Source: Actinomycetota bacterium
GTDB taxonomy: Bacteria; Actinomycetota; Actinomycetes; Mycobacteriales; Pseudonocardiaceae
DNA length: 32,033 nt
Reading direction: 5' to 3'
Assembly (NCBI GenBank): GCA_021324675.1
Contig: JAJPIR010000117.1
Location: 1 to 32,033, forward strand
Of this stretch, positions 1,545 through 20,791 are shown piece by piece. Position numbers and translations under genes: made by a program. Numbering within the stretch: position 1 is the first letter of the stretch; every line of letters begins with the position of its first letter. The notes under the pieces were generated by a model, which saw only the letters and a list, made by a program, of their open reading frames with translations, was not told the DNA's origin and did not search any database.

Positions 1545-3190
1545 GACCCACCACCTATCCGTCGCACCGCGACACGCAGCACCAAGACATAGACCCCGAG
1601 CGCAACCACGCCACCCAGGCCGAGAATTGCGAGATCGACGAGCTGATCTCCGTGATCACTTTGTTGGATCCACCACATCGTGGCAGCCACCGGAAGCAGC
1701 GCGACCGTGGCGACCAGCGCAGCAATCAGCCCGCGGACGTCCACAAACCGTTCCGGATGGATCGCGCGCCGCACCCGGCTCAGCACCGTCCCGGCAGCGG
1801 CCAGCTCACCGGCCAGGATGGCCGTGACCAACCAGACCAGACGCGTTGAGTCAGTAGGCAGCAACAATGCCGCGCCCGCGGCCACGACGATCACGCCGAA
1901 GGCCACCTCGCTGGCACGCCTCGGTATGAGATCGTCGAGCCGGGCAAATAGCGCCCGGCGGCCGATGTCATGCACCCCACCGACCAGTTGGGCCACCGCC
2001 ACCACCGCCAGGCAGGCAGCAAGAGGCCCGATCAGGTCCGCATGCCTCAGCTCGCCGTTGGCCAGCAGGTTTGCGGTTGGTCCGGACAGCACCGTGAGCA
2101 ACACCAGCAGCGGCAGGCTGGCAATCACCGCATAGGACAGGCCCTGCCGCCACCCCGAAGCAAAGGTGGCACCATCCTCGCGGTGTGCGGCGTCAGCCAG
2201 CCCGGGCAGAGCCGCCATCGACACCGCCCGGGCACTGACATAGGACAGCGCGAAGAACACCGAATAGGACAGCTGCACCACGAAGGTGCCGCCCGGGACC
2301 GTGCCGGCCAGTGCAAGAAGTACGTACATCGCTGCGGTCGGCCAAGCGGCCACCCCCACCGAGCGCACCAACCTGCGGGTCATCTCGCGGGTCTCCGGGT
2401 CATGCCGCCAGCGCATCGACGGCCAGCTCAGCAACCCCACCCGCGCGGTGCCCACCAGTTGAAGCGCCGCATGCAATGCGACCGCCACGGTGCTGCCCAG
2501 GCCAAGCGTCAGCACCAGCCCGACCGATACCTTGGTGAACTCCAGTCCGCTCCCGTAGTACCAACCGGCGAAGAGCACCGTCAGGATCAGGACACCGTTT
2601 TCCACCACCTGCGCGCCCGCCGCCAGCGCGAAGCGACCGCGCGCCTGCTGGGCGGCCATGCCCAGGTGCAGCAGGATGTACAACGGAACCTGCGGCGCGA
2701 CGAGCAAGATCAATAAGGTGGTGATCCACAGCCCTCGATCGTGTGTAGCCGCGTCCGGGATCCCGAAGGTGAGCGTCCAGGCAACCGCTGGCGACAGGAT
2801 CAACAACAACCCGACCACTGCAGCCGAGATGGCCAGCAGCCATCCCGTCACCTGGCCCAGCAGCTCCCGGCCCCGGGCCACGCCGCCAGCACCGACGGCG
2901 TGGACCAGTCCGGGGACCACCACCATTCCCAGTACCGGCCCGGCGATCATCGTGAACACCATGTTCGGTACGACGTAGCCAGTCTGGAAGGCGTTGGCGA
3001 AGAAGGTCGGCCCCAGCACCGCCCCGATTACGACCACGCGTAGCAACCCCGTCACCCTGCTGACCAGCGTCCAGCCGGCAACAGTGGCCGAGTTCCGAGC
3101 CGTAGCGGTCGGAGCCCTGAGGTCGTCGAGCGCTGTCACTGTGGGGGCGGCCACGACCGGGGCCTCACGGCCTCGTCCGGCGCCGGACAC
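1541..3190 (-). CDS. MurJ/MVIN-family lipid-linked oligosaccharide flippase (Wzx-like)
   Basis: A 549-residue protein with roughly fourteen membrane segments. After a short hydrophilic leader it has the MVIN-family N-terminal signature: residues about 30-75 read NSATVAGWTLVSRVTGLLRV and continue with a G-P-x-F-x-x-A-F-x-x-x-Y-x-x-P-N pattern. MurJ-family proteins move undecaprenyl-linked precursors across the membrane. Because it lies between Wzz-like and Wzy-like genes, I infer that it exports the repeat unit of this operon rather than lipid II, though a MurJ role cannot be excluded. The GTG at 3190 overlaps the Wzz-like gene by 26 bases; later GTG codons (for example before VAAPTVTAL) are alternative starts. 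It is coupled to the downstream polymerase by an ATGA overlap. Confidence 0.85.
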   Translation of the reverse strand: MSGAGRGREAPVVAAPTVTALDDLRAPTATARNSATVAGWTLVSRVTGLLRVVVIGAVLGPTFFANAFQTGYVVPNMVFTMIAGPVLGMVVVPGLVHAVGAGGVARGRELLGQVTGWLLAISAAVVGLLLILSPAVAWTLTFGIPDAATHDRGLWITTLLILLVAPQVPLYILLHLGMAAQQARGRFALAAGAQVVENGVLILTVLFAGWYYGSGLEFTKVSVGLVLTLGLGSTVAVALHAALQLVGTARVGLLSWPSMRWRHDPETREMTRRLVRSVGVAAWPTAAMYVLLALAGTVPGGTFVVQLSYSVFFALSYVSARAVSMAALPGLADAAHREDGATFASGWRQGLSYAVIASLPLLVLLTVLSGPTANLLANGELRHADLIGPLAACLAVVAVAQLVGGVHDIGRRALFARLDDLIPRRASEVAFGVIVVAAGAALLLPTDSTRLVWLVTAILAGELAAAGTVLSRVRRAIHPERFVDVRGLIAALVATVALLPVAATMWWIQQSDHGDQLVDLAILGLGGVVALGVYVLVLRVAVRRIGGGS

Positions 3191-7885: not shown

Positions 7886-7956
7886 TCCGCCGTAGTGTAA
7901 AGGCAGCACCTCGGATTTTGGTTCCGATAGTCCAGGTTCGAATCCTGGCGGCGGAG
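7886..7956 (+). tRNA. tRNA-Gln (anticodon TTG)
   Basis: All parts of a cloverleaf are readable. The acceptor stem TCCGCCG (7886-7892) pairs with CGGCGGA (7949-7955), and the discriminator is G. The D-stem is GTG/CAC, and the anticodon stem TCGGA/TCCGA carries a TTTTGGT loop with anticodon TTG. The T-arm CCAGG-TTCGAAT-CCTGG is perfect. CCA is not encoded. In related actinobacteria a tRNA-Gln gene lies close upstream of glmU; here about 11 kb of accessory DNA separates them, and an integrase remnant follows directly, so the tRNA 3' end is a likely former attachment site. Confidence 0.97.
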
Positions 7957-7967
7957 CAGCTGCTCAG

Positions 7968-7992
7968 GGGGCGGTGCAGAGATCACCGCCCC
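7968..7992 (+). terminator. Stem-loop terminator after tRNA-Gln
   Basis: A perfect 9-bp stem, GGGGCGGTG (7968-7976) with CACCGCCCC (7984-7992), has a seven-base loop and starts twelve bases after the tRNA. No T-run follows, which is usual for actinobacterial terminators. Confidence 0.65.
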
Positions 7993-8002
7993 GGCTCTGA
8001 CA

Positions 8003-8252
8003 TCAGCAGTTGACATCGGTTGTCGCTGAACAAGCGTCTATGCGCGCTGCCAACCGACGCTTGGACTCAGCAAGCACGTGGGCATAGATCATCATCGTGA
8101 GGTGGGATGTTCATCGTGAGGTGGGTGGAACTGGGACCGAGCAGCTCCGTGACTTCCCTGCCGGAGACAGCATGAACCAGCAACAGGCTTGCGCAGGTGT
8201 ACCTGAGGTCATGAACCCGAGACGGGTTGATCGCGGCTGCTTGAGAAGCCAC
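8003..8252 (-). pseudogene. Tyrosine recombinase/integrase C-terminal fragment, frameshifted
   Basis: Minus-strand reading from about 8252 gives a clear phage-type integrase C-terminal domain: VHDLRYTCASLLL (the H-x-x-R box, with Tyr replacing the usual His after the Arg) and REVTELLGPSSTHLTMN. The reading then goes out of register and stops at 8067. A 19-bp imperfect tandem duplication (8092-8110 and 8111-8129, first 15 bases identical) lies exactly there. Removing one copy restores LTMMIYAHVLAESKRRL and runs to a TGA at 8003-8005, placing the catalytic tyrosine in IYAHV. The N-terminal two thirds are missing; upstream the frame is low-complexity Pro/Met. Such enzymes insert elements at tRNA 3' ends, and this one lies 47 bases from tRNA-Gln, as expected. 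Confidence 0.85.
8092..8129. repeat. 19-bp tandem duplication inside the integrase remnant
   Basis: Two adjacent 19-base units share their first 15 bases (TCATCGTGAGGTGGG) and differ in the last four. Nineteen is not a multiple of three, so the duplication shifts the reading frame of the integrase. Confidence 0.9.
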
Positions 8253-8452
8253 GTAAGGACTTGTTAATGCTGGTGTCGGAACCGGCATGGGCATCGGCAT
8301 GGAGCGGTGGTGGGCCAGGTGTGGGTGTCGGGCCCGGCGTCACTACGGCATCCTTGCGGATCTCGACGTCATGGTCGGGGAATCCCATAGACTTTCACTG
8401 TCCCCATACGTAGCGCTGTATACGGATGGTAGATCGCTGGCAGGGGGTTAAT

Positions 8453-8563
8453 GTGCGGCGCGCAAAGCGAGTTCTGCTGGGTGTTGCGGTGTTGACCTGG
8501 TGTTGGTTTCTCCGCGATTGGATCCTGCTGACAGCCCAGCAGTGGTGGCGTAGGAGACACTAA
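8453..8563 (+). CDS. Possible 36-residue single-pass membrane peptide
   Basis: A GTG with GGGGG six bases upstream opens a 36-codon frame. It encodes a basic start (MRRAKR), one hydrophobic helix rich in Val, Leu and Trp (about 7-28) and a basic end (WWRRRH). A perfect 8-bp hairpin, ATCCGGTG (8600-8607) / CACCGGAT (8615-8622), lies 36 bases downstream and could act as a terminator. The positive-inside pattern with flanking Arg clusters is what a real small membrane protein would show, but the frame is too short to exclude chance. No family is recognised, and there is no neighbour that would hint at function. Confidence 0.3.
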   Translation: MRRAKRVLLGVAVLTWCWFLRDWILLTAQQWWRRRH

Positions 8564-8838
8564 CTACGAGGTGTTCTCAAGCGTTTCTGCGGCTGCCTGA
8601 TCCGGTGCCTACACCACCGGATGAGCACAACCCTGCCTAGAGTTACCTACGACAGCTCGATCAGATGATCTGTGAACCGTGATGGGCTCAGACGTCCCCC
8701 TCGCCACATGTTTGATCGCCCCTGCGCCCTGCCATCACTGCCTGACTCTGTAAACCGCATTTCGCGTCTAGTTCCAGATGACGACAGCAGTTTTCGCGTC
8801 AGCCGATGGGTGACGGTGCCCAGCCATTTTGTGATTGG

Positions 8839-8873
8839 TGGTCTGACCATAGACCTTTTGCTGGTCGGACCAG
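8839..8873. promoter_or_regulatory. Pair of FadR/GntR-type palindromic operators
   Basis: Two perfect palindromes share the core TGGTC-N-GACCA: TGGTCTGACCA (8839-8849) and CTGGTCGGACCAG (8861-8873). Both fit the T-N-G-T-N3-A-C-N-A consensus of FadR-subfamily GntR repressors. Their centres are 23 bp apart, about two helical turns, so dimers would bind the same DNA face. TATAGA at 8885-8890, a possible -10, follows, so the second operator would cover the -35 region. The next plus-strand gene is the lipoprotein at 9069. No GntR gene is in the window. Confidence 0.55.
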
Positions 8874-9068
8874 ACCATCACCTGTATAGATCGACCACCT
8901 GACATGGGCCGACATCACCGCGCCGACCAGCCGGTACGCGAGACGCCATGACGGTCACCAGCTCGCGACGACGCACCGCAGCACCGGTAATGCACCTGCC
9001 GGCCATGCAGACATCGCAACAGCATCACAGTGGCGCATCGCGAGACCCGTTGGGGCGTTGTTGCCAGC

Positions 9069-9761
9069 ATGAGACTCCCCAAGGGCAGCTTGATCATGGT
9101 CAGTGGTTTGATCGTGCTGCTCGCCGGCTGCACCAGCGGTAACGGCACCTCGGCCCCGGCCGTCACATCAGCTATCGCCACGCCTCCCGCACCAGGGGCG
9201 GCGACCTCGCCGGACGCCAACGGCGGCACTGACTCGTCATCAAACAGCAGCACGTACTCATCTGGAACTAGCACATCCGACTCGGGTTCCTCGCCCAGTC
9301 CCGCGAACGCGCCGTCCCCCATGAACGCGCCCGCTGCCGCGAACGCGCCTGGTTCCGGGAATGCGCCTGACCCCATGAACCCGCCTGGTCCCGCGGATGC
9401 GCCTGCCACCGGCGCTGGGCCTGCCGGCATGCCAGACCGTGATCACCACGCGCCGCAGCCTGGGCTTAACTGGCGCCTACAGGATCAACAGCCGCAGGAT
9501 CAGCACCCCCAGGATCAACACCCGCAAGACCAACATCCCCAGGATCAACACCCGCAAGACCAACATCCCCAGGATCAACATCCCCAGGACCGACACCCAC
9601 AAGACCAACGTCCCGGGGACCAACACCCACAAGATCAGCACTCACAGCCGCTGGCACCGGGGAACCACAACAACCCTGCCCCTGCCCAGCGCTGCCAGCA
9701 GAATCCTCTCCTGACAGCGTGTGAGCCCCTACCTGGACCCGCGCACCACTCGTTGGGCTGA
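9069..9761 (+). CDS. Repeat-rich secreted lipoprotein with PQDQH pentapeptide repeats
   Basis: A 230-residue protein starting with a lipoprotein signal peptide (MRLPKG, a hydrophobic core and lipobox LLAGC with Cys21), so it should be lipidated and anchored outside the membrane. After a Ser/Thr/Gly/Ala-rich stretch come about seven degenerate six-residue units of the type P-x-P-x-N-A (about 78-118). About eleven five-residue units QDQHP with minor changes follow (about 137-192), then a short tail with a Cys pair. The pentapeptides are encoded by 15-bp repeats, including a perfect 30-bp tandem duplication. Such regions act as extended wall-spanning stalks or low-affinity metal/polyanion binders; the many His and Asp residues are compatible with metal binding, but this is speculation. 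The frame is open from GTG 9030; ATG 9069 gives the proper signal peptide. Confidence 0.75.
   Translation: MRLPKGSLIMVSGLIVLLAGCTSGNGTSAPAVTSAIATPPAPGAATSPDANGGTDSSSNSSTYSSGTSTSDSGSSPSPANAPSPMNAPAAANAPGSGNAPDPMNPPGPADAPATGAGPAGMPDRDHHAPQPGLNWRLQDQQPQDQHPQDQHPQDQHPQDQHPQDQHPQDQHPQDRHPQDQRPGDQHPQDQHSQPLAPGNHNNPAPAQRCQQNPLLTACEPLPGPAHHSLG
9480..9650 (+). repeat. 15-bp/30-bp tandem repeats inside the lipoprotein gene
   Basis: About eleven 15-bp units encode QDQHP. The 30 bases at 9511-9540 are repeated without change at 9541-9570. All units keep the reading frame, so the number of pentapeptides may vary between strains by slippage or recombination. Confidence 0.9.
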
Positions 9762-9768
9762 CTCGTCC

Positions 9769-9782
9769 GGCCGTGGTCGGCC
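9769..9782 (+). terminator. Weak stem-loop after the lipoprotein gene
   Basis: A GGCCG-TGGT-CGGCC hairpin (5-bp stem, 4-base loop) lies eight bases after the lipoprotein stop. There is no T-run. Confidence 0.3.
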
Positions 9783-9940
9783 ATCGGCATCTTGGAGCCG
9801 ATCTCGGTCGTAGGCACTCGTGCCTTATCGACACAGATATCAGTCGAGGAGTTGGCCCGGCCGGGGAGCGGGTCGCCCGGGTCTGATGGACACGTTTTGT
9901 CGGTTACGCCTGCTGAGGCTGCGGGAAGCCCCGGACGAAA

Positions 9941-10273
9941 CTATGCCTGCTGCCTAAGGCCGAGAACATTGCCGTTGACGTCCTTGATTTGAGCCACCAA
10001 CAATCCGCCGCCGACATCCTTTGGTTCCTGTACAATGTCCGCGCCAGCCTCTTTCAGCGAAGCAAGTTCACTCTCGATGTCATCAACGTCTACGTATCCG
10101 ATTGGGCCAACTTTTCCGTTCGGATCCAGCCCCACCTCTTGGGCGCCAACCCTGTAGCCAATGTAATACGGCCCATCCACGTAAGGCTCCACACCCAAGA
10201 ATTGAGTGTAAATCCGTTTGGCTTTATCCGCATCTTTCACCGGATACACGATCAAATCAATGCTTTTTGCCAT
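9941..10273 (-). CDS. VOC-superfamily (glyoxalase/bleomycin-resistance type) protein
   Basis: A 110-residue protein with the beta-alpha-beta-beta-beta repeat of the vicinal-oxygen-chelate fold in its sequence pattern: DLIVYPVKDADKAKRIYTQFLG, later GYVDVDDIESELASLKEAGA, and the closing QIKDVNGNVLGLRQ. It resembles the small stand-alone VOC proteins often annotated as glyoxalase/dioxygenase. The usual metal ligands are not obvious, so the reaction is unknown. ATG 10273 is chosen over 10291 because AAGGAG lies six bases ahead of it. Its codons (AAA, ATT, TAT) and lower GC differ sharply from the core genes, which suggests recent transfer from a lower-GC donor. It lies directly beside an IS3 remnant. 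Confidence 0.85.
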   Translation of the reverse strand: MAKSIDLIVYPVKDADKAKRIYTQFLGVEPYVDGPYYIGYRVGAQEVGLDPNGKVGPIGYVDVDDIESELASLKEAGADIVQEPKDVGGGLLVAQIKDVNGNVLGLRQQA

Positions 10274-10320
10274 GCGAGGCTCCTTATTCAATCGTTTATC
10301 TACCGGGCGCAGTCAGCTGC

Positions 10321-10905
10321 TTATCGAAACGGTGATGCCGCCTGGACGGCCTGTTGCTGCTCGGTAAGCAGAGCTTCATACTCGACGGGAGGCATGTAGT
10401 TCAGCGATGAATGCATGCGCTGGCAATTGTAGAAGACCTCAATGACCTCCACCACGGCGGTCGGGCCTGAGCCCCGAGTTGGCCGGGGATGGCAGTCGAT
10501 GAGCGAGAGCTTCAAGGTGGTGAACCACGATCCGGCCACCGCGTCGTCCCAGCACTGCTGGGGAAGGGACCGGGACTGGTTGATGTGGTGCTCGGCTAAG
10601 AGGGCGGCGAAGTCCCCGGCCGGGTGGATACCCTTGCGGCACGAGGCTGCATGCACCGGGGCAAGCCATAGGTCTGGCGGGACTCGTCGTAGACGCCCTG
10701 GATCCTTGCCAGCTGGGCGCCTGCCGGTACCCGGGCCGGAGGTTCGCGGCGGTGCCATTGATGGAGGGCAGATGTGGAAACCTCCATGAGGGCCGGGCCA
10801 GATCCTCCCGTTCGACGGTGGTCAGCCCGCCGGAGCGGCGCCCGTCGTCCATATCAGCCTGCTTTGTCCCATGATCGAAGCGCCGTCTCGATCAGGTCAT
10901 TCTCG
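10321..10905 (-). pseudogene. IS3-family transposase remnant (orfA end plus orfB, multiply disrupted)
   Basis: Three minus-strand frames together give pieces of one IS3 element. First, the end of OrfA is GGLTTVEREDLAR (about 10820). Next, the start of OrfB reads MEVSTSALHQWHRREPPAR through SRQTYGLPR (about 10787-10680), with a frame change to PVHAASCRKGI. Finally the OrfB C-terminus starts at DFAALLAEHHINQS (about 10614) and ends with the family signature E-V-F-Y-N-x-x-R-x-H-S-S-L-N-Y. Roughly the central catalytic third of OrfB, with the first two acidic residues, is deleted, and the last catalytic Glu (normally in the AVAES motif) reads Gly in AVAGS. It cannot make active transposase. No terminal inverted repeats could be paired. 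Confidence 0.85.
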
Positions 10906-11083
10906 AGACACCGAGCTCACAGTGTTGCTGGGCTTGCGGAGCAGCTTGGCCATCCGGGCCCTCAAATTCGGGAGTGCAGACCGCCGGGGACTGGGGCTCC
11001 TTGTTCGCCTCCTCGAATGCTGTCGCCGGCAGACCAGGAATCTCCTGCCGTTGGGTGATCCGCGCCTTCCTCTCCTCGGTTCC

Positions 11084-11128
11084 CATCACACCGGGGTTCG
11101 CATCACACCGGGGTTCGCATCACACCGG
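11084..11128. repeat. 17-bp tandem repeat, about 2.6 copies
   Basis: The unit CATCACACCGGGGTTCG occurs at 11084-11100 and 11101-11117 without change, followed by a partial copy to 11128. It is non-coding as far as visible, between the IS3 remnant and the next small gene. Confidence 0.9.
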
Positions 11129-11168
11129 CAAAATGAGGCGCCGAACCTAAGCCAGCGATCTGTACTAG

Positions 11169-11199
11169 TCGGGTATGTCGGGTATGATTAGAGCATACC
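11169..11199 (+). promoter_or_regulatory. Possible promoter with 9-bp direct repeat ahead of the small Gly/Tyr gene
   Basis: TCGGGTATG is repeated directly (11169-11177, 11178-11186). The second copy runs into TATGAT (11183-11188), a good -10 match, and GGTATG (11181-11186) / CATACC (11194-11199) form an inverted repeat over it. No clear -35 is seen. The small gene starts 79 bases after the possible -10. Confidence 0.35.
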
Positions 11200-11266
11200 T
11201 GATTGCGTGCTATGGGCCAGTTTAGCCGGCGCCGTGCCCGCTTGGCCCTGCTGGTGGGAGGCCACC

Positions 11267-11461
11267 ATGGCCAATCGTGGCTGGAAAGACGGTTATCAAG
11301 ACGGACACCGATGTGGTTTCGAGGATGGTTCCAGTACGGGATTACAGTTCGCTACACACGACACCGGCGACGAAGACTACGACCGGGGCTACAGCGAAGG
11401 ATATAGCGCGGGCTTCGAGATGGGGTGTGAACAACGCCGCCGGATAGAGAATGGTATGTAA
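11267..11461 (+). CDS. Small protein with repeated G-[YWF]-x-x-G motifs
   Basis: A 64-residue protein starting at an ATG with GGGAGG five bases upstream; the open frame begins earlier (11207) but lacks such a site. It consists of two clusters of glycine-aromatic repeats, GWKDGYQDGHRCGFEDG near the start and DRGYSEGYSAGFEMG near the end, separated by an acidic linker. There is no signal peptide or membrane helix. The period of about four residues would place the aromatic residues on one face of a helix or in an extended repeat. I recognise no family. It lies alone in the island. Confidence 0.55.
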   Translation: MANRGWKDGYQDGHRCGFEDGSSTGLQFATHDTGDEDYDRGYSEGYSAGFEMGCEQRRRIENGM

Positions 11462-11870
11462 GCCCAGATGCTTGCCGTTTGAATCCTATGCTACTGGATA
11501 GGCAGCACGATCCCGATCAGGCTCCAAGGCAAGTCCCTGTCGGCGCACAAACGCCACCCGCTACCGAAGGCGTTCTACTCAGTGGCGCCGAGCCGCAGAA
11601 GATTCCAGGATTTAAGTCAACGCCATGCGCTTTCCAGAGGGCACCTTGACTCCAGAAGGCCCAACTTGGCCTGAGCCTTGTGGATCATCACGTAGTTCAC
11701 CCATCCCGCCAAGCCCAGCCCGTCGGAGAGGGCCGCTGACTCCACGGGACAGGGCGCGCACATACAAGTCGGCAGACCTTGCCGACAGTCGCTTCCCTGA
11801 AGTCGAACAGAATCGCTGCGTTTGCCGCGGGATGTTGTGGGGAAGTCCCCGCCGCAGAAGGGAGCGCGAC
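11462..11870. other. Gene-poor stretch
   Basis: I see no convincing gene in these 409 bases. A minus-strand frame ending at 11617 contains a mildly hydrophobic stretch (GLGLAGWVNYVMIHKAQAKL) that might be a decayed coding fragment, but it matches no family I can name. Confidence 0.4.
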
Positions 11871-12056
11871 ATGGCCGCCAACGCACACAACACCGACGCC
11901 AAGCCCGACAACCTCGTTGGGGTGCCGGAACCGCAACCGCCTAAGGGCGGTCCCGAGGCGGATCCCAATATGCCTGACCCGGCCGATGTGACCCCCGGGC
12001 TCGGCGGAACGTCGGACACCCGGCCACCTTCGGAGACTGAAGACGACGACCGATAG
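11871..12056 (+). CDS. Small acidic proline-rich protein
   Basis: A 61-residue protein starting at an ATG preceded by AAGGGAG at six bases. The open frame starts earlier at 11625, but that part is Arg/Pro/Ser-rich and lacks a ribosome binding site. The protein is hydrophilic throughout, rich in Pro, Asp, Glu, Gly and Asn, and ends in TEDDDR, so it is probably disordered. It has no domain, signal peptide or membrane segment. The good start site is the main reason to accept it. Function is unknown. Confidence 0.5.
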   Translation: MAANAHNTDAKPDNLVGVPEPQPPKGGPEADPNMPDPADVTPGLGGTSDTRPPSETEDDDR

Positions 12057-12477
12057 CCGTACCGATGCCTTCCGTCGAAGGGATTCGCCTCAGCGCGGTT
12101 ACCTTGCTTGATGATCATTTCCTCACCGTCTCCCACCGCCGACCGTGCCCTCGCCTCTTCGGCTACCCCGCTGTTGAGCCGTGACCGGCACGGGTTACCG
12201 CGCCGTGGTTGTCATGCCACCGATAGGAGTCAGCGGCGAAGTTTCCGGCGTGCTGCCGTTTCACCACCGCGCTCCGCCTGGGGATCCGACGCGGCCCAGA
12301 TTGCCGCGTACAGCGCCGCCCAGGCGCTGAGGCGGCAGTCCCTGGGCCGCCTAACCCCTATGCCTGCCCGGATAGCTTGGGAGCGAACTGCTCACCATCG
12401 GCGATCGGGCCAGGAACCCTCCCCCAAGACATGCGCTGCCCTCCCCTATTCGTCCAATTGATCGTAACACTTCAAGG
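12057..12477. other. Gene-poor stretch
   Basis: There is no convincing gene. A plus-strand frame at 12108-12461 is Arg/Ser/Ala-rich without any recognisable motif or ribosome binding site. Confidence 0.4.
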
Positions 12478-12657
12478 GACCTGACCAAGAAGTTTGGGCA
12501 AATCGCGCGGTAGCATCCACAGGAGACCCAGCAAGTCCTCAACAAGGCGGAGCAGATCATTGACGAAAAGACGGGCGGGAAGCATTCAGAGCAACTGGGC
12601 AAGGGCGCCGAGCGGTTGAAGCAGCACCTTGACGAGCAAGGACCTCCGCAGCAATAA
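12478..12657 (+). pseudogene. MT0933-like antitoxin remnant with an in-frame amber codon
   Basis: The frame reads DLTKKFGQIAR-stop-HPQETQQVLNK and then EQIIDEKTGGKHSEQLGKG..LKQHLD before a TAA at 12655. The I-D-E-K-T-G-G-K core followed by a Lys-rich helix is the hallmark of the MT0933-type antitoxin family. A TAG at 12511-12513 interrupts it where the family has a polar residue (CAG to TAG would explain it), and no start codon in this frame is visible upstream. It therefore appears inactive unless translation starts downstream at a non-standard codon. No toxin gene is next to it. Confidence 0.65.
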
Positions 12658-12811
12658 CTCTAGTTTGATTCCTCGCGGCTGGGCCGAGTAAATTGTTTAG
12701 CCAGATTCGCAGCCGGCGACGTGGATCCGGGTTGCCATTCTCTTGTTGGCTCATGAGCAAGAAACCATCTCGTCGAGAACTCGTCAAGAAGCTGCGCGTA
12801 CCGACCGAAGC

Positions 12812-13045
12812 TCAGTCGTCGTCCGAGGGGCGAGGTGCCCCTACCCGATACTCCCATGGCGACCCATGGCAGCGAGGGCACGGCCTGCGCACATCCCGAC
12901 CCGACCACCATGTGGTGCTCCGGAAATGCCCCGCACCATGGCAGCGCGTGCAGCCTTTCTGCGGCCACCAATAGACACGACCGAGGTGCCAAATAATCCA
13001 ACCCACGATTAATAACCACACAATCTGGGTAACGAGGTGACTCAT
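12812..13045 (-). CDS. Small membrane protein with a C-x-x-C-H-G-x-G zinc-ribbon-like domain
   Basis: A 77-residue protein. One N-terminal membrane helix (about residues 4-24: MSHLVTQIVWLLIVGWIIWHL) is followed by two C-x-x-C-H-G motifs, CTRCHGAG (about 33-40) and CPRCHGSP (about 57-64). They resemble half of a DnaJ-type zinc centre and would form one zinc site facing the cytoplasm. Short proteins of this shape occur in actinobacterial mobile elements (my recollection of the families, not a search). ATG 13045 is preferred to 13069 because GGAAAGG lies upstream at about nine bases and the protein then begins with the helix. Function is unknown. Confidence 0.65.
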   Translation of the reverse strand: MSHLVTQIVWLLIVGWIIWHLGRVYWWPQKGCTRCHGAGHFRSTTWWSGRDVRRPCPRCHGSPWEYRVGAPRPSDDD

Positions 13046-13700
13046 CTCACTCAACCTTTCCGCGCCCACCTATACGGCTGCTTTCGCAGTTTTCACAGAG
13101 GCTGAGCGGTCACACCCAGCACATGGCCAATGAGACCCGGGGCCGGCTGCACCCTGCGCGACGACGAGAGCCGTCGAATGGTTATGCACGTCACCGGGCT
13201 GTGGCGGACAAACTCTTCCATGCCACGTCTACAATCGCCGCCATCCACCTAAACTTCCGCGCGGCGTGTCCGATTATTCTTTAAACCCGTTGCCCTTAGG
13301 TCCGGCAGACCACCACCGGCGCCGCTGGTTCGCGTCCTCCCATGACGTCTCGAGCACTGCTCGACCCTGCGCAAACAGAGTAGCTACCGATACTGACTGT
13401 AACAAGATCGCGAAAAGCGTGCATCGTTTTTTAGCCCGCCAGGGCACGCATGCCACAAATGGCACATTGTCGTGATCAACTGATGACCCACCGTGCCTGC
13501 ACAGGCTTGCTCGACGCGCACAGAATCTGATGGTGCAGCCACGGCAGTCAAAGAGATACTAAAATGGTTTCTCCATGCGGCCAGACGGGCACAGAAGGTG
13601 AGCGAAACAGTGAGACGTGTTCGATTCCTGACATATGGTCAGGATGCAGACCTTTTTGGGTAGTCTTGGCGTTTCAGGCGATAATTACATATCAGGGTTT
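13046..13700. other. Gene-poor stretch, partly AT-rich
   Basis: There is no convincing gene in 655 bases. A CCTGAC-ATATG-GTCAGG hairpin (13627-13643) is followed by TTTTT about nine bases later on the plus strand, but no plus-strand gene ends nearby. Confidence 0.4.
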
Positions 13701-16316
13701 TTATGGCGTTTGATATCGTGCGCTGGACAGCAGGGCGGCCAAAGCGCGTTCGGCGGTGGCCGGGTCGGAGCACACAGCGACCACAACATCGCCGAAGGAG
13801 ATCCCGTTATCGGCCTCGACTAGGCGGACCACCTCGGACAAGGTTACCGGAGCTGCCCGGCCCAACCAGCTGGTGTCGCCGCGGAGCTCGGTGGCCAGCG
13901 TGCCCAGCGACCTGGCGAGCCCGCGCGTGTTGCCGCTGAGGTAGTTGAGCAGAGCAGCGGCGAGGCGGTGGGCGCGTTGCTCGGCGGGATTACCGCCGGT
14001 ACGGGACAGGTAGTCAGCGAGGTCGTGGTGCGCCGTTGCGATTTCCCACGGATCGGGCTTGAGGTACCACAGCTGCACCGAGGTGCGCTGCAACTCGACG
14101 GCTTTCTCGGGGTGGCCTCGTTTGATTTCTACCTCGGCACAGGCGCAATAGACCTTCGCGAGCCGCGTGATGTCACGGACGGCGACAAAGACGTCATGAC
14201 AGTCGCGCAGTAACTGATCAACCTCAGCTAATAGACCAAGGTGGAGCAGCGGCAGGTAATCGTTGAACTGGTTGCCCGCGATCTCCTGCGGAGGGGCCCC
14301 GCGCCGGCGTTTCGTGCTGACAATCTCGTTGTTGAGGTCCAATGCGTCGTGCCAGTGCCGTAAAGCCACCGCGGACAAGCGGCCAATGTCCAGGACACTC
14401 TCCCGGGCCCTCCATGGGTTCACGCGGTCGTTGGGGGCGCGTTTTTCGGGCAGGTCGGCCATCCACAATCGCAGCGCTGGTAAATCGAGAAGAACCTGCT
14501 CGTGGTGGCCGAGCAAATTGAGTGTCTGCAACCGCCGGCCTTGATCGCTGACTCGCGTCCAGGAACCGAATCCAGCTTGGCTGGTGTGCTCGATCTTCTT
14601 GATGGCCATTGCCAGAGCGTCATGAAGTCTGCCTTCATCACGGAGCAGGGTGACCAGTTCACCAGCACACGTAGAGGCAACCTGATGGTTGATTCCGGTG
14701 GCGGCCTGGTGATAGGCGCGACGCAGCACTGTCTCAGCCTGGCGCGGATCGACTTTCCGTAGCGCGGCACCGAGCACGACGAGGTCTTTGACAGCGCCGG
14801 TGGCCAGAGCGATCCGCCGCAGGGAACAAATGACGACCAGGCATATGGCCGGGGTGTAGCCGTCCCGGATCAGCGCACGTTCGAGCAAGCAGCTGGCGGC
14901 ATCCCAGTGGTGCTGGCGTAGCAAGTAGCGCGCGGCAGCCAGGCTCGCCTGGACGGTGGGGGCTCGGGCGTCCTCGCCGTCGTGCGACGGCGGGTTTTCC
15001 CTGCCACCCACGACGGAGGTCCACCAGGCGGCGAGTTGCTCGTCGACCGCGGCGCTGACCGGCTCTGGGGTCGCTGCATGGATGGCTCTGGTGACGCCGG
15101 GATGGATCAGGTAATGCATGTGCTCGACGCCAACGAGCGCAGCGCTGAGCAACGGAGCGACTGTGGATGCCACCGACGGCGGTTCTCCAGGCTGAGCCAG
15201 GCGCCGCCACAGGGCGGGCCAGTTCGCGCTGACAACGTCCGGGTTCCGGTCGGCTTCCGCCAGCCGGCACAGCACCTGCAGCATCAGCCGGCCCGGGGCG
15301 GGCACTGTCGCGGCGACAGTGAGCGTCCACGTGGTGAAGATCTGCAGCAGTTGCTCGGCGTCAAGCCGGGTGTGGCCACAGGCGAGGAAAGCGGCCATCG
15401 GCGCCGTGTCGTCTACGGCGGTTTCGATTTCGGCTAGCTGGTAGGCCAGCCGAGGCGGATCGGCTGCTGCCGCGTCGGCGAATTGCAGTAACTGCGGATG
15501 TCCCTGGAAGAGGGTGAGCAGGCAGCGGGCCAGCGCCACGTTGTTCAACAATGCGCGCAGTGTGGGTAGCTCCCCGACCAGTAGCAGCGATTCTTCCAAG
15601 GACAGCGCGTGCAGCGGCCTAATCAACACCGCGTCGACATTGAGCCCGGCCGGCACGACTTGGCTGGCCAAAATCACGCGTGACGGTCCCCTGTGGCTGG
15701 TTAACGCACTGATCAACTGTGCCCAATACGGATCGCGCCACTGGCCATCCGGGGTGAGCAAGGTTTCGAGATTGTCCAGGATGAGCAACATGCCCGCATC
15801 GATGAAGATGGTGGCGAACCTCTCCATGTCCGTGCCGGCGACGACCTTGTTCGCCGTAGCCCACCCGCAGTCCGGCAGCTGCTTGCGCAATTCCACGGTG
15901 AGCAGGCGCAGCGCGTCACACGACTGCTCGGGATCGGTCGGTGCGGACCAGAACGCAAACGCGCGGAAAGCTTGTCGGTGACGGTGGGCGAGCTGTACAG
16001 CGCAGGTGGTCTTGCCCACCCCGGCTATCCCATGAAACAGCACCGCGGTGCGGCCCGATGCGCAGGCCAATGCGCTGCTGGCCGCGGCCATCACCCCGGT
16101 ACGGCCAACAAACCGTGTTGGTGGGGCTGGAAACCCGTCCATCGCGTCATCAGCAGCGTTGAAGATCGGCTTTCCTGCCAGACGTGCCGGAGTTCGCCGG
16201 ACCGTCGAGGTCCGCGCTCCATCTAGCTTGTACGCCCGTCCCAGGAAAAGCGAAAAGAGGACGGCCAGCAAGATCCAGACGAGAATCCCGAGCCCGATCA
16301 TTGTGATCGTCTTCAC
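13701..16316 (-). CDS. Membrane-anchored STAND (NB-ARC-type) ATPase with helical repeats
   Basis: An 871-residue protein. Residues 5-26 are a membrane helix, followed by a basic linker. FVGRTGVM (69-76) opens a STAND nucleotide-binding domain. Walker A is GIAGVGKTT (96-104), Walker B is LLILDNLE (177-184), a sensor-like SRVILASQ lies at 212-219, and the G-x-P motif is GHPQLL (272-277). From about residue 440 to 810 there are helix pairs of TPR character. The last 45 residues (starting TLSEVVRLVEADNGISF) look like a separate small helical module. STAND proteins are signal-activated oligomerising switches used in transcription control and anti-phage defence. No nuclease, protease or DNA-binding effector is visible, so the membrane helix may be the effector or only an anchor. 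The start is GTG 16316 with GGAGG four bases upstream, buried in a hairpin. Confidence 0.85.
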   Translation of the reverse strand: MKTITMIGLGILVWILLAVLFSLFLGRAYKLDGARTSTVRRTPARLAGKPIFNAADDAMDGFPAPPTRFVGRTGVMAAASSALACASGRTAVLFHGIAGVGKTTCAVQLAHRHRQAFRAFAFWSAPTDPEQSCDALRLLTVELRKQLPDCGWATANKVVAGTDMERFATIFIDAGMLLILDNLETLLTPDGQWRDPYWAQLISALTSHRGPSRVILASQVVPAGLNVDAVLIRPLHALSLEESLLLVGELPTLRALLNNVALARCLLTLFQGHPQLLQFADAAAADPPRLAYQLAEIETAVDDTAPMAAFLACGHTRLDAEQLLQIFTTWTLTVAATVPAPGRLMLQVLCRLAEADRNPDVVSANWPALWRRLAQPGEPPSVASTVAPLLSAALVGVEHMHYLIHPGVTRAIHAATPEPVSAAVDEQLAAWWTSVVGGRENPPSHDGEDARAPTVQASLAAARYLLRQHHWDAASCLLERALIRDGYTPAICLVVICSLRRIALATGAVKDLVVLGAALRKVDPRQAETVLRRAYHQAATGINHQVASTCAGELVTLLRDEGRLHDALAMAIKKIEHTSQAGFGSWTRVSDQGRRLQTLNLLGHHEQVLLDLPALRLWMADLPEKRAPNDRVNPWRARESVLDIGRLSAVALRHWHDALDLNNEIVSTKRRRGAPPQEIAGNQFNDYLPLLHLGLLAEVDQLLRDCHDVFVAVRDITRLAKVYCACAEVEIKRGHPEKAVELQRTSVQLWYLKPDPWEIATAHHDLADYLSRTGGNPAEQRAHRLAAALLNYLSGNTRGLARSLGTLATELRGDTSWLGRAAPVTLSEVVRLVEADNGISFGDVVVAVCSDPATAERALAALLSSARYQTP

Positions 16317-16366
16317 CGATCCTCCAAGGTGACGGAGCGCCGCCGGCAGGCTCCCGTGGAGGATCG
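16317..16366 (-). promoter_or_regulatory. Hairpin sequestering the ribosome binding site of the STAND gene
   Basis: In the mRNA sense, CGATCCTCCA (16366-16357) pairs perfectly with TGGAGGATCG (16326-16317). The latter contains the GGAGG ribosome binding site and ends right at the GTG start. The 30-base loop holds an inner stem, CGGGAGC with GCTCCG (one bulged G). The whole would hide the translation start unless opened by a factor or a processing event. Confidence 0.65.
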
Positions 16367-16370
16367 CCTA

Positions 16371-17406
16371 ACTTGAGCTAGCCGTAAGGAGCACGCCAAG
16401 GCGATACCCTAGACAAATCGCAATGGATTCCCGTGATGTAACCGGGCTGCGAACCGACCACTCGAATAGCGTAGTGCGCGACCAGTGATCCGTTTTCAGG
16501 TTCACCTGCAACGTCACTCGGCGCGACGGGAGATGGCCGTTTGTGCGTCTACCGCGACAATGTCACAACAGGTTCAATTTTTTCACGCAACCATTGCCGG
16601 CGATCCGCAGGTCGTGTGCAGACGTTGTGCAGAACGCCTGCTTTGTTCTCCGCATGGCCGCATCGCGGTGTAGGCACTGCGTTGCCCCGCGAGCGGCCAG
16701 AATGCAAAGATCATGATGGTGTCAGGTGGATGCATTCCCGCCGCCTAAGATGATCTACTGGTAATCAGCTCTTGATGCTGAATGTCTCGTCAGAGCATCC
16801 CTCCGGAGCAGGCGCGTCATGATCCGGCTCTGCATCGCTAGCAGACCGCAACGCCAGGTACTGGATCACCTGGGCAGGACTTCACTGGCACGACGAGCAA
16901 GTGGTGACACAGCGGCGGTTACAAGCTGCAATTAGATGGTCACTTAAACACCACATGATTTACGGCAACGGGGTGAACCGGCGGGCAACTTGTTCACGAC
17001 CGCTACTTTCACGCGATTCACTACCGGGGTGGTCTCCACGGCGTCACCCTAATGACCGTTGTTAGCATTCGATGGGTTACGAGGGGTGTCCGTTTCCAAG
17101 TGTGGCGTGAGGGAGAATCGAGAGATCATATAGCAGCGGTCGGCACTAGCCTTCTGGCGGGTGAGGACCCCAGTCATGTTCGGTTCGCCCAACGTATGGC
17201 AGCAGCTCACCATTGATTAATGTTCAGCATGACCAGTGTTTGTGTACGGTCTGCACGGCAAGCGCGTTCCGATCGCTTCCTCCGCGCGGCTCCGGGCGTC
17301 CCACCATGGTGGGGGGTTCAGCCGCAGTTATTGCCGGCAGAAAGGATACCGCGCCGTCCATGCGTGGCTGTCCACAGGTTTCCGGGCACGGGAAGGAACG
17401 GAAAGT
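16371..17406. other. Divergent intergenic region of the STAND and Wzz-like genes
   Basis: This kilobase has no gene I can defend. A plus-strand frame from about 16530 to 16673 ends in a C-R-R-C-A-E-R-L-L-C piece that could be a zinc-ribbon fragment, but its start site is poor. Promoters of both flanking genes should lie here; I could not assign -35/-10 boxes. Base composition is lower in GC than in the core genes. Confidence 0.4.
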
Positions 17407-18111
17407 ATGAGCCTGTCGACCATCCTACGAGCGGCGCTTCGTAGATGGTATATCGCAGCCCCAGGTGTCCTACTTTCGCTCGTTATCGCCAGCACGGTCT
17501 TCAATTACGTACCTCCAAAGTACACTTCAAGCGGCATCGCAGTCCTGGTACGACAAAACAATCCAACGGTACCGAACTCCATCAACCCGATAGTCGGAAG
17601 TGATGGCACTTTTACCACGGCCACATTGACTCTCATGCAGGCCATAGACACACCAACGGTCAAGGCAGAGCTCGGACTAAGACAGGGCGTGGATGACTTC
17701 GACATCAGTAACGTCGGCAAGGCCACCGCAGCCGGCGGGGGCGACCACCCCTTTCTCTATATCTCAACACAAAGCTCAAACCCTCAGAAAAGTACCGAGA
17801 TAGTAGATGATGTCATTGCGGCCGCGCGCCAAAAGTTGACCGACCTGCAGAACGACTCGAATGTGAGGCCCCAGAACCAGATCAAGCTGGAAAGTGTCGT
17901 TGATGCCACCCCGCCGAAAGCAGTCATGAATATCGTCTACGCGGCTACGGGTGGGGCCTTGCTGGTCTGCATTGCCATCACATGCTTCGTAGCTTACGCA
18001 TGGGATACGATCGTTGTCGCCGGACAAAAACGACATATTCACCGATCTGCGTCCCGTGCTAAACAACATGCAGACCCTCGACTCCGCGCAAGCCCGCGTA
18101 AAATAAGCTGA
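17407..18111 (+). CDS. Orphan Wzz/YveK-like polysaccharide co-polymerase, low GC
   Basis: A 234-residue protein starting at an ATG with AAGGA nine bases upstream (an open frame reaches back to 17236 without a better start). It has a short basic N-terminus (MSLSTILRAALRRW), a first membrane helix (about 15-32), an extracytoplasmic domain beginning P-P-K-Y-T-S-S-G-I-A-V with a later I-S-T-Q-S-S-N-P-Q-K-S pattern typical of Wzz-family proteins, and a second helix (about 176-198). The basic tail after it looks out of style and may result from a late frameshift. Family members control the length of exported polysaccharides. No polymerase, kinase or glycosyltransferase is beside it. Its codons are AT-richer than those of the core genes, which suggests a different origin from the 3165-4085 protein. 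Confidence 0.75.
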   Translation: MSLSTILRAALRRWYIAAPGVLLSLVIASTVFNYVPPKYTSSGIAVLVRQNNPTVPNSINPIVGSDGTFTTATLTLMQAIDTPTVKAELGLRQGVDDFDISNVGKATAAGGGDHPFLYISTQSSNPQKSTEIVDDVIAAARQKLTDLQNDSNVRPQNQIKLESVVDATPPKAVMNIVYAATGGALLVCIAITCFVAYAWDTIVVAGQKRHIHRSASRAKQHADPRLRASPRKIS

Positions 18112-18191
18112 CGCCGGGTAACACTAAGGGACTGAAAGGCTATTTTGTCGCCATGTTGGCGGGAGTTTCAGGTCTACACTGATCGCCGTCA

Positions 18192-18621
18192 TTACCCTCC
18201 GTCGTGGTGCCCGCGGACTGGTTGTGCCGTGAGCAAGTCGCGGAGCCGGTTCAGCGCCCGGTGCTGCCCTATGCGCACGGCACCCGGCGTCGAGCCTATG
18301 GTCTCGGCGGTCTCCTCGGCCGATAGTCCCAGCAGGATCCGCAGGCGCAGGATTTCGCGCTGTTCGTCTGGTACCAACGCCAGTAACTTAGCCAGGCGCC
18401 AAGTGGACTCGCCGTTCATCGTCGCTGCCACCGGCCGGCTGCCGATTCCGTCATGACGGGGACATGGGGAACTGCTTCGGCGCGCGGCGATGGACTCCAA
18501 ATGTCCGCGCGGGCAGCACAGAAACAGCAGTGGCCGGCCGCCCTTTTGCCGATTGGCCGATCACCGCATCGACTTTGCGCATATCGAACGTGCGCGCTGC
18601 CACAATGTATCCTGCAACCAA
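18192..18621 (-). pseudogene. ECF sigma factor remnant (region 4 kept, region 2 degraded)
   Basis: From about 18398 down to 18192 the minus strand encodes a clean sigma region 4: LLALVPDEQREILRLR, then LGLSAEETAETIGSTPGAV and QHRALNRLRDLL, closest to the SigD/ShbA-type ECF factors of actinobacteria. Upstream the same strand but another frame (about 18621-18530) gives LVAGYIVAAR..RKVDAVIGQSAKGRP, which resembles the end of region 2 (A-x-x-K-V-x-D-A) of the same group. The part between them is scrambled. A normal factor is around 180-200 residues; the surviving open frame (18192-18500) has 102 and lacks region 2, so it should not initiate transcription. A stand-alone region 4 could in principle still bind DNA or core polymerase. 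Confidence 0.7.
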
Positions 18622-19330
18622 GGCCAGTCGTCCGTTCACACAATCTCCTGCCGATGCCTCACCGATGCGGCTAGATAGCGCAAATAGCAATTCGAGCTCC
18701 GAGTGGGCTCGTGACCTCATGCCGCTAGCCGGACGCAATCAGCTGGCGCCGCCGTCGAATCGTCCACCTACGGATGAATGTAGAATAACTTGGTTCATGC
18801 GGCCAGCTCATTCATCCACTCGACGTAGCACCGTCAGAATAAGAACGAGTACAGTAAGCGATTGGCAACAGTCGGTGCGAATCGTGGTGCTATAGCCGAG
18901 TTATCCTCACGCACCGTGTCGCCTCTCTGGCGTTGGGTAGTGAAGCTTGAAGCTGTATAAGCTTGCCGTTGCCGGTCACGCCATGCTCTCGCGGTCATCT
19001 CACTGTATGACCACTGGCGAATCGTATGATCATGTTTAGGTCATCCTTCATCGCGTGACACCACCGCCTTTACCTGCGACCGAGTTCGAACATCGCAGCG
19101 GCAAAGGACAACGCGCAGTCAAGTTCATGATCGACGCATTGTTCACCACGCGCTGGGAGGAGCATGCAATAGCAGCCTGGGGCAAGCTTGACCACGTGGC
19201 GGCATAGCTGGGACAGCTGGATTGCTACCAGTTGAACAACGAACGCCCCGGCGGCGGCCGCCCTGCCTGGCATCCACGTAGGATCCGGCCTGTTACCCGC
19301 TGCACCATGACAAGGGAAGGACACCTGGCG
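18622..19330. other. Right end of the island and glmU leader
   Basis: There is no firm gene in this 709-base stretch. A 50-codon plus-strand frame (GTG 19055 to TAG 19205-19207), in phase with glmU, gives a hydrophilic peptide containing VKFMIDALFTTRWEEHAIAAW that I do not recognise; it may be a decayed gene end. A repeat of AAGCTT is near 18945-18963. The glmU promoter should lie here but was not identified, and no copy of the tRNA-Gln 3' end is found. Confidence 0.4.
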
Positions 19331-20791
19331 ATGCTCCCAGGCGGGAGCCTCACGACAGCGATCGTGCTGGCCGCCGGTGAAGGCACCCGGATGCGCTCGG
19401 CGGTACCGAAGGTGCTGCACCCGCTGGCCGGGCGGTCCCTGGTGGAACACGCTCTCCGAGCCGTTGCTGGGCTGCACCCCGAGCACCTGGTCGTGGTCAT
19501 TGGCCACGGCCGGGCCGCGGTAGAGGCCCACCTGCAGACGGTGGCGGCCGCACTGGGACGCGAGGTGCGCACCGCGGTGCAGGCCCAGCAGCACGGCACC
19601 GGTCACGCAGTGCGCACGGCCTTGGATGTGCTGCCAGCCGAACTGCCCGGCACCGTGCTGGTCACCTACGGCGATGTACCGCTGCTGGACACCGCCACGT
19701 TGGCGGAATTGATCAGTGAACATCACCGCAGTGGGCATGCGGTGACCGTCCTGTCGGCAGTGGTGGAGGACCCCACCGGGTATGGCCGGGTTCTCCGGGA
19801 CTGCTCTGGTGCGGTGTCCGGAATCGTCGAGCACCGTGATGCCAGCACGGCACAACGCGACATCCGCGAAATTAATTCTGGTGTCTTGGCCTGTGACGCC
19901 ACGGTGCTGCGCGAGGCGCTGGGTCGGCTGCGCCCAGCTAATAGTCAGGGTGAGCTGTACCTGACTGACGTGCTGGGCCTCGTCCACGCCAGCGGGCTTC
20001 CGGTCGGTGCGCACCCATGCCGGGATCCGTGGCTGGTCGCCGGAATCAACGACCGGGTACAGCTGGCCGCGGTGGGTACGGAGCTCAATCGCCGGTTGGT
20101 GGAGCACTGGATGCGGGCTGGGGTCACCGTGGTGGACCCGGCTTCAGCGTGGCTAGACGCCGATGTGCAGCTGTCCCCGGACGTGGTGCTGCATCCCGGG
20201 GTGCAGCTGCATGCGGGCACCGTGGTGGGCCCGGGCGCGGTGATCGGACCGGATTCGACGTTGTCCGGCTGCAGCATTGGAGCGCAGGCGACTGTGGTGC
20301 GGACCCATGGCGTTGGCGCGGTTGTCGCCGAACGAGCGCAGATCGGCCCGTTCGCCTATTTGCGGCCTGGCAGCCGGGTTGGCGAGGGTGCCAAAGTGGG
20401 CACCTTCGTAGAGACCAAGAACGCTGAGTTAGGGCCCGGTGCGAAGGTGCCGCACCTGAGCTATGTCGGGGACGCAACGATCGGCGAGGGCACCAATATC
20501 GGCGCGGCCACCGTGTTCGTCAATTACGACGGCGTGGCTAAGCACCGCACTGTGGTGGGCGCGCACGCCCGGACTGGGGCCGACAATATGTTCGTCGCAC
20601 CCGTGACTATTGGCGACGGCGCTTATACCGGAGCTGGCTCGGTTATCACCCAGGATGTGCCGCCGGGCGCGCTGGGGGTGGCCCGAGGCCGGCAACGAAA
20701 TATCGAAGGCTGGGTGAGCCGGCGCCGCCCGGGCACCCCGGCCGCACATGCAGCGCAGCAGGCCGGCGGCGAGACGACGCGGCAGGAGTAA
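19331..20791 (+). CDS. glmU: Bifunctional GlmU: GlcNAc-1-P uridylyltransferase / GlcN-1-P acetyltransferase
   Basis: A 486-residue cytoplasmic enzyme that acetylates glucosamine-1-phosphate and then couples it to UTP, giving UDP-GlcNAc for peptidoglycan and, here, probably also for the surface polysaccharide. The N-terminal domain shows [31 protein letters not shown] and YGDVPLL. The C-terminal left-handed beta-helix shows [20 protein letters not shown], the [25 protein letters not shown] block and the closing [16 protein letters not shown] hexapeptides. The frame is open to TTG 19232; I choose ATG 19331, which has GGAAGGA about nine bases upstream and leaves a normal N-terminus, while ATG 19307 lacks such a site. 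Its stop overlaps the first possible prs start by one base. Confidence 0.97.

Follow-up and report, generated by a model that had tools for sequence, protein, structure and literature searches.

The window, the whole stretch of 32,033 nucleotides that was analysed, comes from an uncultured member of the Pseudonocardiaceae whose draft genome comprises 5.63 Mb in 364 contigs. A tRNA-Gln gene with the anticodon TTG is located on its plus strand (7886–7957; ARAGORN; Rfam RF00005, 61.9 bits), and the 3' end of this gene is the presumed attachment site. The 3' remnant of a tyrosine recombinase gene, probably from an actinomycete integrative and conjugative element (AICE), lies on the minus strand at 8003–8246 (left end approximate). 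It is read in two frames and comprises about 75 codons and a surplus of 19 bases. This stub points at the tRNA gene, and 45 bases separate the tRNA 3' end (7957) from its TGA, where a preliminary description of the same DNA had counted 47. Between the integrase stop and the tRNA gene there is a 9-bp perfect inverted repeat, GGGGCGGTG/CACCGCCCC (7968–7992). Its fold gave z = −2.38, with 4 of 200 shuffles folding equally well, inspection by eye showed comparable GC-rich stems in a number of intact relatives, and the repeat appears to be terminator-like. ARAGORN also called a tRNA-Ser at 2780–2866 (minus strand) within the murJ ORF, a call that has no Rfam support and is probably false.

The interval between the tRNA-Gln gene and glmU (7958–19313) spans about 11.4 kb (11.37 kb) and is absent in four relatives of the genus. 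The right-hand neighbour glmU (19328–20791, plus strand; the listed ORF starts at 19232) had its best named match, at 83%, in JAICHZ010000191.1, a Pseudonocardiaceae MAG. Alignable DNA on the glmU side begins 7–170 bp past tRNA-Gln in G001, G005, G006 and G007, that is, in four of the ten genus genomes, a count made without G003, whose contig ends at the junction. The gap from tRNA-Gln to glmU is 0.98–1.39 kb in G002, G009, G008 and G010, and glmU was not found in G004 within the 13.5 kb up to the contig end. Next to the tRNA gene, DNA of the integrase tail could be recognised by eye clearly in G002, G004, G009 and the window, but only faintly in G008 and G010. A second tRNA end has left traces in G010 (45 positions, 89%) and G002 (26 nt, 88%). 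A search of 7958–19340 in the window found no attR relic or second tRNA 3' end, the sole weak tRNA-like match in the window covering 28 nt from the 5' half (79%, E = 0.011). By tblastn on 8150–19350, neither RepSA nor FtsK nor any other element gene was credibly matched (best E 0.28 over all queries), and comparisons of the island with the corresponding stretches of G002, G004, G008, G009 and G010 recovered only the glmU side by blastn and nothing by tblastx.

Lesions of the integrase stub

Between 8261 and 8112 the minus strand gives ...INPSRVHDLRYTCASLLLVHAVSGREVTELLGPSSTHLTM, an integrase C-terminus as far as LTM, and then goes out of frame; the following minus-strand frame, TMMIYAHVLAESKRRLAARIDACSATTDVNC (8098–8006), carries IYAHVLAESKRRL... 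and continues to the TGA at 8003–8005. These two frames bear out the preliminary description, in which the integrase frame was lost at a 19-bp tandem duplication, and the catalytic-type Tyr codon (8084–8086) is located directly beside this repeat. The catalytic set of tyrosine recombinases consists of R, K, HxxR, H/W and Y. The stub keeps HDLR, as well as the Tyr in the other frame, while the part with the first Arg/Lys is gone and the His of LGH is replaced by Pro. With the 386-residue integrase of the relative L126 as the reference, about 320 N-terminal residues are missing.

Nothing credible was found in a search for the integrase N-terminus over 8150–19350. The best matches (E about 0.001) fall within an ORF of 871 aa (13701–16316, minus strand) and were taken as chance, as was a match of 1e-4 to the same ORF that was obtained from a smaller stretch without composition correction. 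This ORF itself encodes an ATPase domain resembling AAA_16 (25.9 bits against a cut-off of 32.6) and shows weak AfsR-like similarity, and PADLOC gave no match for it. The window DNA at 8240–8640 scored against integrase DNA like its own shuffles, and a weak alignment of the relative L134 that reached 8330 was not counted as int. The integrase relic of G004 has frame breaks of its own. A truncation point shared between the window and G004 was not found; the blastn alignment between G004 and G046 continues upstream at 62%, and in the upstream shuffle test 32, 108 and 112 of 200 shuffles scored as well or better for the window, and 43, 7 and 10 of 200 for G004.

The preliminary description had regarded the duplication as the inactivating event, so that the integrase would have been complete until the 19 bp were duplicated and the remainder would have been lost later. 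Duplication aside, about 75 codons are indeed open from INPSRVHDLR to a stop where the integrases of L125 and L128 stop, but the missing N-terminal part and the altered LGH stand beside the duplication as further lesions, and their order is not readable from the sequence. We therefore consider this course of events unlikely, and the duplication may have struck a gene that was already dead.

Relatives of the stub and the type of element

Profile searches gave weak matches to the stub. Pfam Phage_integrase (PF00589), with which the preliminary description had proposed to check the recombinase reading, stayed below the cut-off of 27.1 bits both for the 64-aa first piece (E = 0.0064, 16.7 bits) and for the pieces joined by X (E = 0.019, 15.2 bits). 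No Pfam match was returned for the 34-aa second piece alone, nor any NCBIfam match for the stub at E ≤ 0.001; the integrase PHROG 7685 matched at E = 0.0044. None of the 32 matches that PF00589 gave in the own genome lies on the contig that holds the stub.

The recombinase identity was settled by the relatives in the family genomes, the Pfam matches being weak. Homologues of the stub were found at E ≤ 1e-5 in 24 of 297 family genomes, the own genome counted, and the other 23 loci comprise 18 open frames of 398–631 residues (stop to stop), one of which has a TGA within the matched region, and five shorter ones. Identities between the stub C-terminus and its ten best family matches were 49–57% in the genome search and 42–48% by gapped blastp. 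By its homology to these longer members, the stub clearly reads as a fragment of a tyrosine recombinase family member rather than as a working one. When the genus was searched with the fragment, matches at E ≤ 0.001 were obtained in 8 of 11 genomes, the own genome counted; the others share 33–44% identity, which indicates that there is no close intact copy within the genus.

The claim of the preliminary description that an integrase fragment lies beside a tRNA gene and points at it is supported, and this is the arrangement usual for such genes. In our reading, a tRNA 3' end faces the 3' end of the integrase within about 100 bp in 19 of the 23 relative loci, and the facing tRNAs are those for Asn (7), Val, Pro, Thr and Arg (2 each), and Ala, Lys (overlapping), Ser and Gln (1 each). 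Two of the remaining four loci are without a tRNA call, and in the other two the tRNA is 680–890 bp off. According to PMC3218068, the vast majority of AICEs with tyrosine recombinases are found in tRNA 3' ends, and closely related AICE integrases seem to share the tRNA target, yet different tRNAs are possible.

The best match of the stub among the 297 family genomes was the integrase of G046, a genome from another genus of the same family, which is likewise located at tRNA-Gln(TTG) and has 44 bases from its stop to the tRNA gene, against 45 here. Genes for FtsK/SpoIIIE, DUF932 and RepSA were found in the neighbourhood of this integrase (L125/L149), which is how pSAM2-type AICEs are composed. 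The element is far more complete than the relic in the window, although in that draft its integrase gene is split between two frames and no far end of it was detected within the 10.5 kb examined. RepSA was present in all three element stretches scanned (L149, L150 and L151), and FtsK in the two that were scanned for it, L149 and L150. Two of the five stretches examined, L150 and L153, which are the tRNA-Asn and tRNA-Pro relatives, have exact att repeats, 43 and 45 nt long. RepSA is also present in 10 of the 11 genomes of the genus of the window.

The stub resembles pSAM2-type AICEs in the homology of its C-terminus, in its integration at a tRNA 3' end and in an integrase that faces the tRNA gene, and differs from them in that about 75 int codons are present and that RepSA, FtsK and the attR half of an attL/attR repeat were not found. 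As no element genes and no attR relic were found in the window, the element type rests on the relatives, and these point to an AICE as the source of the stub. Derivation from a temperate phage integrase, which would have the same fold and the same site preference, appears quite improbable. The intact integrase of L126 does match 2981 phage records, all of them below 60% identity, but its identity to phage is 32–35% among the matches listed and 45.9% to the best plasmid record, and the presence of RepSA in the three scanned element stretches also argues against a phage. A scan of viral contigs with the fragment gave 14 pattern matches, none of which was confirmed.

The tandem repeat and the history of the site

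The 19-base duplication described earlier is real but imperfect. On the minus strand, the copy beside the catalytic-type Tyr codon (8087–8105) and the second copy, with the outgroup-like ATGAACATC (8106–8124), are alike at 17 of 19 positions and share 15 consecutive identical bases from 8092; the boundaries 8092–8110/8111–8129 given previously correspond to a shifted register of this repeat. At a minimum score of 30, the 19-base repeat was not listed by Tandem Repeats Finder. Runs of at least 15 identical bases at a spacing of 7–30 occurred six times in the window, this repeat included, and not at all in 40 dinucleotide-preserving shuffles.

Compared with G004 and G046, which read ATGAACATCTACGC, the window has 19 additional bases exactly at the repeat; that both outgroup copies lack them supports the preliminary description on this point. 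Because they are absent both from the sister G004 and from G046 in another genus, the extra bases are most simply explained as a derived event in the lineage of the window, which was probably made by slippage or by recombination between short repeats. The removal of one copy, from which a repaired reading LTMMIYAHVL had been proposed, does yield a frame that goes on to the stop at 8003. The Met before IYAH in that reading is, however, not ancestral, since the Tyr-side copy differs from the outgroup-like copy at two positions; the ancestral residue was most likely Asn, as in the TMNIYAHVL of G004 and G046.

The upstream-gene tree and the combined tree both place the genome of the window (G000) and G004 as sisters with a support of 1.000. 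Apart from this pair, genomes with and without relics are intermixed in the flanking-gene trees, which fits one old insertion followed by losses as well as it fits repeated insertions. We infer that the relics of the window and G004 descend from one insertion. Provided that they do, the duplication most simply dates to after the split from G004; if the relics are separate insertions, it could have arrived with the element.

Taken together, we favour, with a probability of about 87%, the reading that the stub is the relic of an AICE integrase at tRNA-Gln, that the element decayed and that the 19-base duplication also arose in the stub. A self-transferring element would once have sat in the tRNA-Gln gene. 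The genes for its transfer and replication would have been lost or replaced by other DNA, as would roughly four fifths of int and the attachment site at the far end, and the tandem duplication would have arisen within the int stub, just ahead of the Tyr codon and most simply post-split. That the extra 19 bases are an artefact of assembly or sequencing seems very improbable: the draft is in 364 contigs and neither outgroup has these bases, but the two positions at which the copies differ are unlike a simple duplicated assembly piece.

Under the favoured reading of a decayed AICE, the locus adds to the cases in which an integrated element has decayed beside a tRNA gene and introduces no new principle, while its relatives show other stages, from far more complete elements through a short relic with an attR trace to relic-free sites. 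The literature already contains AICE integrases left truncated where the element had inserted (PMC9513070), and the window is one more instance. As described in that paper, AICE decay in Streptomyces leaves partial integrases at insertion sites where other strains have no element. The window is similar in its partial integrase and in a site that is empty or filled among relatives; the decayed Streptomyces AICEs, as described there, keep two direct repeats and related cargo, whereas only the tRNA side was found here.

The GATGTCA direct repeat and other DNA of the island

A motif search identified a direct repeat of GATGTCA in a 13-base register over the integrase stop codon (7998–8004 and 8011–8017, minus strand), and no second pair with at most two mismatches in all was found in the window besides that at 7998–8017. 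Among the 18 relatives displayed, both copies were exact and in the same place in six, one was exact with a poorer second copy in six, and none was exact in six. In L150 (3054) and L153 (5336), the two stretches with att repeats, the pair recurs in exact form some 98 bases inward of the far att repeat, so that the repeat lies within both ends of these two elements; 200 shuffles of either stretch gave no exact pair. The pair at the int end of L150 has two mismatches, and L153 has another pair, with one mismatch, beyond the limits of its element at 579. Pairs at the integrase stop lie at 16056 in L153, 8361 in L149 and 1409 in L151. That the window has kept such a pair speaks for its descent from an element of this kind. 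Arm-type sites are known for such recombinases, and the GATGTCA pair is likely a candidate arm-type binding site for the recombinase or an excisionase, which makes it a small testable lead. A literature text search for the motif together with 'integrase' returned no AICE paper among the matches listed. It is very improbable that the tRNA-Gln/glmU junction has kept the stub and the pair because this short segment still works in docking, as a reused landing pad for incoming elements of the family and not just debris.

Several other features were observed in the island. A transposase remnant lies at 10321–10758 on the minus strand (PHROG 157, E = 9.2e-16; Pfam rve_3 just under the cut-off). The segment 8353–8720 is a dispersed DNA element with seven copies in 6 of the 11 genus genomes. 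It was considered as a gene and rejected, as the codon-position differences of 79/75/85 carry no coding signature; its hydrophobic 36-aa ORF (8453–8563) is open in all seven copies with no third-position excess, and had no match in 189 other family genomes. Tandem repeats with 18-base units (9298–9405) and with 15/30-base units (9480–9641) are also present.
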